Positions 59,385 to 64,000 of a DNA stretch of 64,000 bases are shown piece after piece; position 1 is the stretch's first letter, and the number at the start of each line of letters is the position of its first letter. The position numbers and the translations under genes were made by a program. The DNA lies in contig NZ_AP023243.1 of NCBI RefSeq assembly GCF_016756495.1, positions 186,001-250,000 of the forward strand. The letters are read 5' to 3'. The notes under the pieces are model-generated. The model saw nothing but the letters and a program-made list of their open reading frames with translations. It made no database searches and was not told the DNA's origin. The stretch comes from Mesorhizobium sp. 113-3-3 (GTDB lineage Bacteria > Pseudomonadota > Alphaproteobacteria > Rhizobiales > Rhizobiaceae).

Positions 59385-60467
59385 ATGGCTCAGCAAAAGA
59401 TTTCATTCGGCGGTGTGGACATATTGCGATTCCTCGCTGCCGTGCTCGTCATGGTCTACCATTACGGATTCTGGGTCTGGGCCTATCCGGACGGCATCTC
59501 GGCACAGGCCACGGGCGGCGTGCCGGCGCAGCCCGTTATAGGCGCCTGGGTCGGGTCCGGCTGGGTCGGCGTCGAGATCTTCTTCGTCATCAGCGGCTTT
59601 GTCATCGCCTTCAGCGCCGAGAAATCGACGCCGCTGCGGTTTTTCGAGGCCAGGTTCAAACGGCTGGCACCGGCTGTCTGGATCTGCGCGCCGGTGACCG
59701 CCGTGCTGCTTCTTGCCATCGGCCTGAGCTGGCCGACCGACGCGGTGGTCCGGCTGGTCCGTACCGGCCTGTTCGCACCCTATGGTCCCTGGGTGGACAG
59801 CGTCTACTGGACACTCGGCATCGAGATCGCCTTCTACGCCGTCGTCTGGGCCTTGCTGCGGCTCGGCCGTTTCCATCTGATGGAGGCGGTCGCCATCGTC
59901 ATCGGCCTGATCAGCACGCTGTTCTGGTGCCTCTATTATCCGCTCGGCTGGGCGGACTTCGCCGAGACGCGGCTGCTGCAGCTCACTTTGGTGCATCACG
60001 GCTGCTTCTTCGCCGTCGGCGTGCTGCTCTGGCTGATGCGGTTCAAGGCACTGACGGCGCCTCGCCTTGGCTTCTGCCTGCTGTTCCTTGGCGGCGGCGT
60101 ACTTCAGATCGCCAGTTCGGTCGACGTCCACAGCATCAAGGTCAATACCGTGATGCCCTATGCGCCGCCGATCCTGATCTTCCTCTTCGCCATCGCGCTG
60201 ATGGCATGGTCGCTCCGGCTTGACCTCAGCTGGAGCGGCTGGCGCCGGATCGGCCTGATGACCTACCCGCTCTACCTGATCCACGACGTCGTCGGCGCGG
60301 CAATGCTCGGAGCGATGGTGCGTGCCGGAGTGCCTTATCTCCTGTCGATGGCAGTGGTCGCCGCGACCATGATCGCGGCAAGCTGGCTGGTGGCCGCCGA
60401 AGCCGAACCGCGCATCCGGCTGCTGCTCGACCACACCGTCTTCCGCTACCGGCTCAAAGCGGCGTAG
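59385..60467 (+). CDS. Acyltransferase family 3 membrane protein (OafA/NodX-like)
   Basis: A 360-residue integral membrane protein with about ten helices. FGGVDILRFLAAVLVMVYHY (8-27) has the family's Arg and His motif, followed by VGVEIFFVISGFVIAFSA, which is diagnostic of the acyltransferase 3 family. YPLYLIHDVVG is the late conserved motif. Such proteins transfer acetyl or other acyl groups to surface polysaccharides, LPS or Nod factors. The acceptor is unknown. Confidence 0.88.
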   Translation: MAQQKISFGGVDILRFLAAVLVMVYHYGFWVWAYPDGISAQATGGVPAQPVIGAWVGSGWVGVEIFFVISGFVIAFSAEKSTPLRFFEARFKRLAPAVWICAPVTAVLLLAIGLSWPTDAVVRLVRTGLFAPYGPWVDSVYWTLGIEIAFYAVVWALLRLGRFHLMEAVAIVIGLISTLFWCLYYPLGWADFAETRLLQLTLVHHGCFFAVGVLLWLMRFKALTAPRLGFCLLFLGGGVLQIASSVDVHSIKVNTVMPYAPPILIFLFAIALMAWSLRLDLSWSGWRRIGLMTYPLYLIHDVVGAAMLGAMVRAGVPYLLSMAVVAATMIAASWLVAAEAEPRIRLLLDHTVFRYRLKAA

Positions 60468-60687
60468 GCGTCTGGACATCGCCTGCGGCGCGATCAATGG
60501 CGTCGGTCAGCCGTTTCCGCTCCTTGTTGATCCACTGGCCTTCCAAGTAGTTTTGGAGAAACGCCTCGGCGAACCCGACAGGGTCCTGCCCGACGATCGC
60601 GCGGACCGGGGTTCCGTTCGCCGCGCTCTGGTCGCAAATATCCGCGAGATTCTCCAGCCGTGGCAGCCTCACCGCCACCCTTCTCAT
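60454..60687 (-). pseudogene. N-terminally truncated DUF1048 gene remnant
   Basis: A 77-residue frame whose residues 11-77 (LENLADICDQSAANGTPVRA, then DPVGFAEAFLQNYLEGQW) match the C-terminal two thirds of DUF1048 proteins, usually about 110 residues and paired with a PadR regulator. The first ten residues (MRRVAVRLPR) do not fit the family, and the normal N-terminal half is absent. The break lies on the side of the AvcD-like locus, so the gene was probably cut when that DNA arrived. It overlaps the acyltransferase gene end by 14 bases. Confidence 0.6.
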
Positions 60688-60769
60688 GATGTGTGCGGAT
60701 GTGATTGGCGTCCGGCAGGCCAGCTTGGAAACTTAAAGCGCAATAACGGCTACCGAGTTGACCACCAAT

Positions 60770-60973
60770 TTACCGTTTTCCGGCGGGAGTCCGAAAGATG
60801 CCAGAGCGAGCAACTCGCTCGACAGCCTCTCGGCGAATGGAAAGCGTTGCGGCATCCAAAAGTCGCACGACATTTCCAGCCTTGCCTGAGGCAACGCCGG
60901 TCCTTTGGCCGTTGCCGTTCCAGACGAATTCCAATTGATCGGAACGACCCGAGACATCCTTGCGCTTCGACAT
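60770..60973 (-). CDS. Small basic protein coupled to the dCTP-deaminase gene
   Basis: A 67-residue basic, soluble protein (MSKRKDVSGRSDQLEFVWNG...). AAAGGGG lies seven bases before the ATG, and only one base separates the upstream deaminase stop from this start, so the two are translationally coupled. No family was recognised. A helix-rich centre (VVRLLDAATLSIRREAVERV) could be a protein- or nucleic-acid-binding surface. It might be an accessory or regulatory component of the defence locus; this is inference from position. Confidence 0.6.
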   Translation of the reverse strand: MSKRKDVSGRSDQLEFVWNGNGQRTGVASGKAGNVVRLLDAATLSIRREAVERVARSGIFRTPAGKR

Positions 60974-60974
60974 G

Positions 60975-62567
60975 TCACGCCCCTTTGCCAATTGGTGTCT
61001 TTTCCTTATCGGTGAGATCGGCAATCACTTTAGACTCATATTCGGCTGGCGAATCAAGCGCCATTCGAAAGACAGGCACAGCCTTCATATGATCCACTGA
61101 CACCACGTGTCCGCCCTTCTTTCTCTCCCCAGCTTGCTGGAAAAGCCTGAGATAATTTCTAGGCGCCACCCCATCGAACTGACTAAAAATCACTTTTCCC
61201 TTTTGGTCGGGGTCTTCAGTGATGGCGTCCGAGTGGAGTACGGTTGCTAAGCTCTTTCGATATGGCTGGATATACACAACCGATTGGATTCCGGCGGCCA
61301 CTATGTGACGAGCGCAATTGTGGCACGGATAGGTGTTCGTATAAAGGGTTGATCCAACCAGTGAGTGCTTCCCCTCTCTCGCAACCCCAAGTATTGCATC
61401 CATCTCAGCGTGGATTGACCTAGAGAATTCTATTAAATCATCAATTCCGGTACCGTCGAGTATCTCTTCTGCCTTCTTCCTTTTCACGCCATCCTTGACT
61501 ATCACCGATTTTAGGATGCGGTCGACAATTGTGTCCTTGATAGCATTGCGCCGGATCTCGTTGTGGCAAATCTTTTGCTGCCACTTAAAGCATCGGTGAT
61601 CACTGTCCTCTATCCGATGCTTATCTTGACTCCAAACTGACTGATCGTCCTCGCGATACAAGCCGCCCCCGAACTTTGGAACGTCATTCCAGCCGACCGA
61701 TATTAATTCACCGTTTTTCGCAACGATTGCCGCTCCAACCTGCCGAGACATGCACGCTGAGTTCGACGCAGCTGAAGTAGCCTCATACATGGCGGACTCA
61801 GCACGAGTGGGCGTTCTAATCCTAGTACCGAATATAATATCGAGAAGTCGTTCTACGCTTGAATGCAGTTCCTCAGGCTTTTTATCATTACAGATAAAGA
61901 AATCTGCTTCAACGAATACCTTTCGCGTTTTCTGCCCAAACGTAGGATATTCATTCTGATCTCTATCAAGTATGGCATCAACTTCCTGGTGGCCCGCACC
62001 ATCGTCTAGCAACCGTTGCCTCCGCAAATTGTCCGGAGCAAACACGCCAAATAGGCAAAGGGTCTCGCCATATATCTGCTTCAGCAGAATAGACTCTTCG
62101 GGATTCTTGATAGAATCTATAATGTATGCCCGTCGGCCAGGAAGCGGCAGGCCTTCAGCCGTATACCCCTTCCTCTGCTTACGGAAGAGCACAATCTGCT
62201 CGACGGCTTTTTCGGCCAGATAATCACTTCCAAACTCTGAGCGAAGTTTATTTCCAATATCTTGCATTGCGGTAATGTACGCACCCAGTGGTTGCTTATC
62301 AGTAGGCGCTCTTCCTACTCTATACGCTTCGGCTTTAATAATTGTACTTGGCTTGATCGTCTGACAGACATCGTACCCGTATTTCTGAGAAAGGAGGTCC
62401 GATAGAAATTTTGCTGTAGTCGAGACGCCCGAAGCCACCGGGCCGACCAATGCTATGACAAGCTCTTGCGAAAGCCTATCGCCGATGGTTGTGGCAATTT
62501 TCTCGGGCTCGCTGTTGTCTTGCTTTAATACTGTGGCCGATTGGCTCACGATAATATCCCCCACCAT
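60975..62567 (-). CDS. Antiphage dCTP deaminase, AvcD-like (P-loop + cytidine deaminase)
   Basis: A 530-residue two-domain protein. Residues about 35-250 are a P-loop NTPase/kinase-like domain with Walker A-like GPVASGVST (42-50). Residues about 255-500 are a deoxycytidylate-deaminase domain with an ACMSRQVGAAIVAKNGELIS strand, catalytic HAEMDAI (His386, Glu388) and zinc ligands in PCHNC (414-418). This layout is that of AvcD and related antiphage dCTP deaminases, which deplete dCTP/dCMP on phage infection. Codons are AT-rich against the flanks. The ATG at 62567 has AGGGGA upstream. An ordinary dCMP deaminase would be about 150-180 residues. Confidence 0.85.
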   Translation of the reverse strand: MVGDIIVSQSATVLKQDNSEPEKIATTIGDRLSQELVIALVGPVASGVSTTAKFLSDLLSQKYGYDVCQTIKPSTIIKAEAYRVGRAPTDKQPLGAYITAMQDIGNKLRSEFGSDYLAEKAVEQIVLFRKQRKGYTAEGLPLPGRRAYIIDSIKNPEESILLKQIYGETLCLFGVFAPDNLRRQRLLDDGAGHQEVDAILDRDQNEYPTFGQKTRKVFVEADFFICNDKKPEELHSSVERLLDIIFGTRIRTPTRAESAMYEATSAASNSACMSRQVGAAIVAKNGELISVGWNDVPKFGGGLYREDDQSVWSQDKHRIEDSDHRCFKWQQKICHNEIRRNAIKDTIVDRILKSVIVKDGVKRKKAEEILDGTGIDDLIEFSRSIHAEMDAILGVAREGKHSLVGSTLYTNTYPCHNCARHIVAAGIQSVVYIQPYRKSLATVLHSDAITEDPDQKGKVIFSQFDGVAPRNYLRLFQQAGERKKGGHVVSVDHMKAVPVFRMALDSPAEYESKVIADLTDKEKTPIGKGA

Positions 62568-62901
62568 GTCCCCTGAGGTTACATAGCATAAGGCTTCTAA
62601 GCTGTTAACCGGCTCTGCATTTTCATGGTTTGAAAATCTTCAATTGGATTTTCAGACATCAGGTATGGCAAATCTCGCAGAACACTCGGAACCGCAAGGC
62701 CATTGGCGACGGTGTAAAGAGGTGAAGACGAGTCAAAATGGATGGTGGACAAAGCACGAGGGACCCGCTGAGGTCACCTTGTTGACGGCATTAGAATTTT
62801 CGCGGTCAAGCGGCGCCTCAATTTCCTGACCGGCGACCTGACACTGATCAGAACCGCCGACAGGCATGGAGATTGAAGCTGCTTGGGCAGCGGCCTACCG
62901 C
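62568..62901. other. Gene-free region upstream of the AvcD-like gene, with AT-rich hairpins
   Basis: No convincing gene lies here; a 61-codon plus-strand frame from 62644 lacks a ribosome-binding site and family. TGAAAATC (62631-62638) and GATTTTCA (62647-62654) form a perfect 8-bp stem, and an overlapping stem TTTTCA/TGAAAA lies at about 62620-62636. They are 55-90 bases upstream of the avcD-like start on the same strand. In Vibrio, the AvcI inhibitory RNA is encoded directly upstream of avcD, so a small RNA here is possible but unproven. Confidence 0.4.
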
Positions 62902-64000
62902 CTAGACCGTCGCCTTGCTGCGCACTTCGGACTTGTCGAGATAGTAGCTCGAATATTTGTCGAAGAATTTCTCCGACGCGCCGAACGATCCGTATTTGGC
63001 GAGCTTCTTCAGGTCGACCTTGTTCAGCACCGCGCCGACGATCTTGTTGGCGACATAGGGTTCGGATTCCAGCATCGACCGCACCATGGCGCGCGGCGTG
63101 CGGCCCCATTCGGTGACGAGCACGAAACCGTCGACCAACGGCGCGAAGGCCTTGGCGTCGACCACCGGACCGAGCGGCGGCAGGTCGACGACGATATACT
63201 CGAACGTCTCCTTGGCGTTCTCGATGAAGCGCCGCATTCCCGCCGAGGACAACAGTTCGCTGGTGTGCGAGAAGTTGCCGCGCAGCACGGCGGGGATGAT
63301 GGCGAGCTTGGTCTGCCGGTCGATCTTGCCGACGGATTGCCAGGTCTGGCCGTTGACCACGGCCTCCATCAGGCCTTGCTCGGCCTCCATGCCGAGGCTG
63401 CGGCTGAGGCCCGGATTGCGCAAGTCACCGTCGATGAGCAGCGTCCTGGCGCCGTTGGCGGCCAGCAGCCCGGCGAGATTGGCCGCGACCGTCGACTTGC
63501 CTTCGCCGGGAAGCACCGAGATGACGCCGACGACGCGGCTGCCCTGTCCTTCCATGACGACATCAAAGGCGATCTTGGCGCTGCGCAGCGTCTCGGAGAA
63601 CATCGACGCCGGCGCGTCGATGCTGACCCGCATGCGCGCCCGTCTTTCGATGGCCGCCGGCGACCTGGCTTTCTTGGCATCCGGCAGAGCCTCTGCCTGC
63701 TTGTCCTCCTTGGCGGGCCTGCTGCCGACGGTCGGCAAATAGCCGAGGAATTTGAGGCCGACGCGGTCGCGGACCTCCTCGCCGGTCCGGAAGAACCGCT
63801 CGTTGAACTCGTTGAGGCCGCCGAAGCCGGCGCCCATCAGCACGCCGAGCACGAGCGACAGGCCGAGCACGATGACGGTGCGCGGGCTCGAGGCGGAGAG
63901 CGGCGTCGAGGCGTCCGAGATGATACGGATCTTGCCGACCGGGAAGGATTGCTGCTGCGCGGCTTCCTCATAGCGGCCGAGGAAGGTCTGATAGAGCGTG
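62902..64000 (-). CDS. ExoP/Wzc-type polysaccharide co-polymerase with tyrosine autokinase domain (5' end outside window)
   Basis: The visible 365 C-terminal residues begin in the periplasmic domain (TLYQTFLGRYEEAAQQQSFP), run through the second transmembrane helix (TVIVLGLSLVLGVLMGAGFG), and end in a cytosolic BY-kinase domain with Walker A VLPGEGKSTVAANL, Walker A' LLIDGDLRNPG and a Tyr-containing tail (KYSSYYLDKSEVRSKATV). The ISDASTPLSASSP stretch before the helix is the usual Pro-rich segment. These proteins control chain length and export of exopolysaccharide such as succinoglycan. The frame is open to the window edge. Confidence 0.9.
   Translation of the reverse strand, partial: TLYQTFLGRYEEAAQQQSFPVGKIRIISDASTPLSASSPRTVIVLGLSLVLGVLMGAGFGGLNEFNERFFRTGEEVRDRVGLKFLGYLPTVGSRPAKEDKQAEALPDAKKARSPAAIERRARMRVSIDAPASMFSETLRSAKIAFDVVMEGQGSRVVGVISVLPGEGKSTVAANLAGLLAANGARTLLIDGDLRNPGLSRSLGMEAEQGLMEAVVNGQTWQSVGKIDRQTKLAIIPAVLRGNFSHTSELLSSAGMRRFIENAKETFEYIVVDLPPLGPVVDAKAFAPLVDGFVLVTEWGRTPRAMVRSMLESEPYVANKIVGAVLNKVDLKKLAKYGSFGASEKFFDKYSSYYLDKSEVRSKATV

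Follow-up and report, generated by a model that had tools for sequence, protein, structure and literature searches.

Organization of the avcD locus in Mesorhizobium

The window, a 64,000-nt stretch of Mesorhizobium DNA, carries on its reverse strand an avcD-like gene for a 530-aa protein and, directly behind it, an open reading frame (ORF) of 67 residues. Both frames had been reported in a first-pass annotation, and their coordinates agree with our reading. The features considered here are:

60975..62567, reverse strand: avcD-like anti-phage dCTP deaminase, 530 aa (NF041025, PADLOC dCTPase, PF00383)
60770..60973, reverse strand: type-A partner protein, 67 aa (ORF, family alignment, protein-level selection, adjacency to AvcD)
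60920..60937, reverse strand: the six QLEFVW codons (partner Q13-W18), where relatives have the clamp-type hexapeptide (alignment, motif statistics, sequence)
60656..62628, reverse strand: two-gene cassette, the stretch common with Mesorhizobium norvegicum (blastn, 77% identity)

The avcD stop codon occupies 60977-60975 and the partner ATG 60973-60971, leaving a gap of 1 base, and the sequence AAAGGGG sits just 5' of this ATG. The gene pair is flanked by a same-strand gene for a ParA/AAA_31-type ATPase, Wzc-like in our reading, and by a convergent acyltransferase gene. The AT-rich character ascribed to this patch from the outset is evident in 1-kb blocks, with GC contents of 48.6% (61001-62000) and 50.5% (62001-63000), compared with 55.8-71.3% in the remaining blocks of the window. 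A truncated gene had also been placed next to the pair: a 77-aa ORF at 60454-60687 (reverse strand) aligns with DUF1048 in its second half only (model positions 50-101, full length 102) with 24.9 bits, under the cut-off of 29.6, in line with this assignment, and is likely a gene remnant adjoining the cassette. An Rfam scan of 60400-63000 returned nothing over threshold, promoter and terminator scans at the locus gave results at chance level, and the 3' region did not fold better than shuffled sequences (z 1.11).

The large protein is assigned to the AvcD-type anti-phage dCTP deaminases

The 530-aa protein matches the NCBIfam model NF041025, “anti-phage dCTP deaminase”, from end to end (model positions 1-437 of 437) with 453.4 bits, above the equivalog cut-off of 400, and the PADLOC dCTPase model with an E value of 8.6e-166, both of which support the AvcD type originally assigned to it. 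Its zinc-site motifs HAEMDAI and PCHNC can be read directly in the C-terminal deaminase domain (Pfam PF00383, 3.6e-18), so that the complete deaminase site previously noted is confirmed. The P-loop postulated alongside it fared differently: GPVASGVST (window 62418-62444) is indeed present near the N-terminus, in a region of predicted kinase-like fold, but lacks the lysine of the Walker A consensus GxxxxGK[ST], and “P-loop” hence denotes fold and position rather than a complete motif. By eye, no lysine was seen at the canonical place in the displayed relatives either (every second row). A Foldseek search with the structure model of L005, a relative sharing about 56% identity, retrieved dCMP deaminases with a best E value of 5.3e-08 and the adenylate-kinase-related structure 3lw7 with 1.5e-06. 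From these comparisons, the predicted domain layout is an N-terminal nucleotide-kinase-like domain devoid of the Walker A lysine, followed by a C-terminal zinc cytidine/dCMP-deaminase-like domain. A sequence search of the PDB brought up no housekeeping enzyme sharing the long N-terminus, as the five matching chains cover the deaminase domain only and leave the N-terminus uncovered. Deamination of dCTP/dCMP and protection against phages would be expected of this AvcD from its family.

avcD and its partner gene form a cassette in different surroundings

DNA similarity between the window and M. norvegicum (L001) is confined to 60656-62628 (blastn, 77% identity) and comprises both genes together with about 61 nt before avcD and about 114 nt after the partner gene; the surroundings of the cassette in M. 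norvegicum differ from those in the window. We also inspected 16 congeneric loci fetched by means of the flanking ATPase gene. In eight of these, both flanking genes lie 328 to 1090 nt apart and no match to the cassette is found, compared with a distance of about 2430 nt in the window. Thus, avcD and its partner constitute a cassette of ~2 kb that occurs in more than one genomic setting. Its low GC content, the other surroundings in M. norvegicum, and the eight congeneric loci devoid of it agree with the initial view of a recently acquired module. Two AvcD genes were further encountered on contigs filed as viral, namely L077 (an IMG/VR contig) and L070 (MT839973.1); the former bears a type-A pair, suggesting carriage by prophages. 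In L077, AvcD and the small protein are not fused, as a stop codon separates both ORFs.

The small downstream gene is conserved next to avcD

Related AvcD genes were collected from 17 genome loci, 16 of which are readable past the end of the deaminase (L014 ends too early). In 15 of the 16, a downstream ORF of 61-93 aa begins with a start codon located within about 30 nt of the avcD stop; the exception, L017, is the most distant locus, and the partner of L016 is counted but much diverged. Residues Q13, R47, I59, and F60 are invariant in 16 aligned partners (L016 left out). The proteins, hereafter type A, share a layout of a basic N-terminus, a hexapeptide, a variable linker, and a conserved C-terminal element, V.[FL].D..T...RR.A..RV...GIF. 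Comparison of the window and L001 genes over 66 codons yielded 14, 8, and 35 differences at codon positions 1, 2, and 3, respectively, and of the codon changes, 24 are synonymous and 17 non-synonymous; this bias towards third positions indicates that the partner evolves as a protein. The avcD match in L009 (Bosea lathyri) contains one in-frame stop, being either a pseudogene or a sequencing error, and the small ORF downstream of it is open.

Searching 385 alphaproteobacterial genomes with a profile of the small protein returned two places, one in the window and one elsewhere, each adjacent to AvcD; at most 15 candidates per genome were scored, making absence elsewhere a weak result. AvcD itself is found in 17 of these genomes at an E value of 1e-20 or lower. 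Among database proteins, 32 match the partner at E 1.4e-7 or better. The partner has no match in Pfam or PADLOC and reaches E 0.072 in NCBIfam, below cut-off. Its shortness and the outcome of these family searches would suit a chance or non-functional ORF, a reading that is already refuted by the counts of relatives together with protein-level selection (the frame and its conserved residues recur in 15 of 16 readable loci, besides the 32 database proteins) and to which we assign practically no weight. As judged from conservation and position, the 67-aa ORF is a real gene and probably a dedicated partner of avcD. The first-pass annotation was therefore right on the enzyme, on the coupling of both genes, and on the interest of the small one, and the neighborhood survey it had suggested finds the partner together with AvcD at 15 of 16 readable loci and at both places of the profile search. 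The clamp-type motif and the second partner family described below go beyond it.

Most type-A partners carry a clamp-type hexapeptide

Peptides that bind the beta-sliding clamp (DnaN) are described as QL[S/D]LF or QxxLF, with QLSLPL as a tight E. coli form, in excerpts of PMC12309361. According to parts of PMC3836487, Caulobacter HdaA requires its N-terminal QFKLPL for binding to DnaN and for localization to the replisome, and N-terminal HdaA segments of 10-50 residues that contain the motif are insufficient to bring YFP to the replisome. The hexapeptide of type-A partners appears to take this form, a canonical example being QLSLEF of the Sphingorhabdus-type partner. The pattern Q[LMIFY].[LMF].[FLIM] occurs within residues 1-30 of 42 out of 45 distinct type-A proteins, which are related rather than independent, whereas shuffled sequences yielded a mean of 0.16 and a maximum of 3 matches (2000 shuffles). 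L016, with an AvcD match in two pieces and a diverged partner without the motif, was left out of set A2 and of the 45. Clustering at 60% identity resulted in 16 clusters, with the motif in 15. In control sets from the window and 22 loci, 15 of 628 ATG-initiated ORFs of 50-110 aa matched, 11 of which are type-A partners, and none did among 225 ORFs with at least 200 aa. The strict motif was likewise not found at the ends of AvcD (0 of 61 examined).

All 8 A-like partners of more distant AvcD proteins match the relaxed form Q..[LMF].[FLIMY], and 5 of the 8 match the strict one; some of their starts and frames were picked by eye. Partner starts in L020, L050, L051, and L066 were set by eye at an inner start codon. 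In L079, a motif-bearing ORF 63 nt past avcD was preferred to a competing frame at -1, and L066 offered two frames, of which one was taken; both choices lean towards the motif. Rows without a stop before the sequence end (L014, L033, L064, L088) were dropped. The sole cluster devoid of the motif is that of the window, which reads QLEFVW, with QLEFDC in L001 and P0003, the two closest to it. As these three proteins miss the strict pattern, clamp binding is least certain for the window itself, and the case for it is weaker there than for the family.

An unrelated partner family follows a separate AvcD clade

A separate AvcD clade comprises 11 rows (SH-aLRT 96), and a second kind of partner gene, type B, lies downstream of avcD at loci L024, L052-L055, L057, L059, L072, L075, L082, and L083, with database hits P0037-P0045. 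Type-B genes overlap or adjoin the 3' end of avcD and encode proteins of 153-202 aa, longer in L055, where the gene continues into a TIR domain (PF13676, 1.7e-21). In the type-B model, the N-terminus (residues 1-44) is predicted to be disordered and is followed by an alpha/beta domain, for which the PDB search gave no convincing match (best E 2.5e-3). A profile comparison of type A with type B detected no relation (probability 0.4%). The partner type follows the AvcD tree, from which L009 (internal stop) and L013, L016, L032, L063, and L086 (under 450 aa) were excluded.

The combined clamp pattern is present within the first 75 residues of 10 of 11 type-B proteins, compared with a mean of 2.44 and a maximum of 7 in 5000 shuffles; L086, close to L083, was left out of this count. 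The strict pentapeptide occurs in 2 of the 11. Among the database hits, 6 of 9 contain QL[SD]LF and 7 of 9 the wider form QL[SDE]LF (shuffle mean 0.004), which was extended by E after the sequences had been seen and whose seven matches all belong to one cluster. That two unrelated partners share a clamp-type peptide argues for its binding to something outside AvcD, and constitutes our best argument; going by the peptides, the sliding clamp is the obvious candidate for this target.

A third kind of small partner, of 53-60 aa, was observed downstream of avcD in L056, L061, L062, and L076. It is characterized by W-[PS]-x-W-[MK], and no clamp motif was found in it by eye.

A clade devoid of downstream partners and the question of AvcI

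AvcI is described as a non-coding RNA that is labile and lost once transcription stops, so that AvcID is released at phage-induced shutoff (sections of PMC10511110; further background on AvcI in part from PMC12409362). A ten-row AvcD clade (L065, L067-L070, L073, L074, L078, L080, and L081; support 95) has hosts including E. coli, Klebsiella, Vibrio, and Photobacterium, besides a phage record, and no downstream ORF with the motif was seen there by eye. We take this clade for the published AvcID type on account of its hosts and upstream ORFs, with no published sequence placed in it by name. An upstream ORF of 40 aa or more is present at 10 of 10 loci, chance ORFs being found at this place in other clades too. 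In five of six annotated plasmid records of the clade, the annotation places a CDS of about 57-62 codons upstream, and tryptophan is the last residue in 6 of 7 aligned products; the combined motif is found in none of the ten upstream ORFs. AvcI as published is a non-coding RNA; the upstream region of this clade may also be translated, and deserves attention.

Upstream of avcD, blastn detected nothing shared by the window and L001 beyond about 61-67 nt. The short common leader suggests that AvcI is missing in the clade of the window. About 180 nt upstream of avcD are shared by the near-copies L010 and L011, and the same blastn applied to the ten-row clade revealed shared upstream DNA in one pair only (L069/L074), which makes this a weak test of the absence of AvcI.

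A proposed coupling of AvcD to the replication clamp

We tentatively propose, at somewhat less than an even chance, that the partner couples AvcD to the replication clamp and ties it to replication-fork status, the pair being a two-gene variant of AvcD. The avcD product would act as the effector and, as expected from its family, deplete dCTP during infection. The C-terminal element of the partner may bind AvcD, and its disordered N-terminus would, in most of the family, bind DnaN via the short peptide. AvcD would be held at, or inhibited through, host DNA-loaded clamps and be released by a phage that displaces or destroys the host replisome; partner and clamp together would fill the role of the labile AvcI RNA in AvcID. 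Such a gate is favored here over a recruiting function, the data being compatible with inhibition, recruitment, or sensing. With a little more reserve, we consider it possible that a whole AvcD branch is clamp-wired and has recruited at least two unrelated partner families, with the clamp, and through it replisome takeover by a phage, as the trigger or as the place where dCTP is destroyed, instead of the shutoff of transcription that triggers AvcID.

In a model of AvcD and partner fused into a single chain, residues 524-564, corresponding to the partner N-terminus including the motif, have pLDDT values under 50, and the blocks containing the partner helix (565-580) have mean pLDDT values of 53 and 68. 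The model fits the proposed architecture and shows neither docking nor its absence; the hexapeptide could also dock on AvcD instead of the clamp. This would apply if the partner were an ordinary protein inhibitor that replaces the AvcI RNA and binds AvcD with both ends, its resemblance to clamp ligands being coincidental. The tight coupling behind an effector gene, the common leader of only about 61-67 nt in the window and L001, and the Mesorhizobium forms that are devoid of a canonical motif yet retain the C-terminal element would all be in agreement with such an inhibitor. However, docking on AvcD alone hardly accounts for clamp-type peptides in 10 of 11 members of the unrelated type-B family, some with exact QL[SD]LF, nor is it favored by the predicted disorder of both type-A and type-B N-termini; we rate a plain inhibitor as rather unlikely, though worth serious consideration.

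Alternatively, the partner may be a positive factor that recruits active AvcD to the fork for local destruction of dCTP, with control exerted by some other signal, and the clamp-type motif would serve this purpose. We regard this as distinctly unlikely: local depletion would gain little, as dCTP is diffusible, and small proteins coupled to toxic effectors often act as their inhibitors. Parts of PMC3836487 do lend the idea a precedent in the proposal that contact with the DNA-loaded clamp might promote HdaA activity. Finally, the partner could itself be the effector and block replication by occupying the clamp, with AvcD as a second hit, similar to SocB, which inhibits replication elongation via a clamp-binding motif (as described in PMC9690074, in part), and to the toxin RipA, which targets the sliding clamp (PMC12795458, in part). 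No further recurring small gene that might encode an antitoxin was seen alongside by eye, and a plain blocker of the clamp cleft leaves the conserved C-terminal element unexplained, so that this option appears very improbable.

Comparison with known systems

A literature search retrieved no paper joining dCTP deaminase, defence, and sliding clamp; the founding AvcD papers lay outside its scope, and an earlier mention of the small gene is possible. A clamp-docking partner, if true, would directly answer how AvcD homologues that lack an evident AvcI are silenced and what they sense, and replisome takeover would join the events to which defence systems respond.

AvcID and single-gene anti-phage dCTP deaminases belong to the same enzyme family, with depletion of dCTP/dCMP expected. 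Unlike AvcID, the system in the window has a conserved downstream protein partner, and AvcI is not evident in its short shared leader, by the weak test given above.

Hda/HdaA, acting in regulatory inactivation of DnaA, addresses the clamp by an N-terminal hexapeptide, QLSLPL in E. coli and QFKLPL in Caulobacter (excerpts of PMC3836487). HdaA belongs to the AAA+ proteins and has DnaA as its target; it is set beside the partner by motif and description. Searching the genome of the window with Bac_DnaA, with HdaA as yardstick, gave four places, three of them weak and identical; in our judgement, these represent one DnaA and three mobile-element ATPases, and no HdaA was identified in this genome by the search.

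SocB of Caulobacter and RipA of Streptococcus pneumoniae are toxin-antitoxin proteins that target DnaN, as described in parts of PMC9690074 and PMC12795458. Compared with them by description, the roles would be distributed differently in the system proposed here, with the deaminase as effector and the clamp-motif protein as its partner. Transposases with a convergent QLxLF provide a precedent for independent gain of such a motif in unrelated proteins of mobile elements; according to sections of PMC4549789, their motif is mostly C-terminal, whereas that of the AvcD partners lies at the N-terminus.
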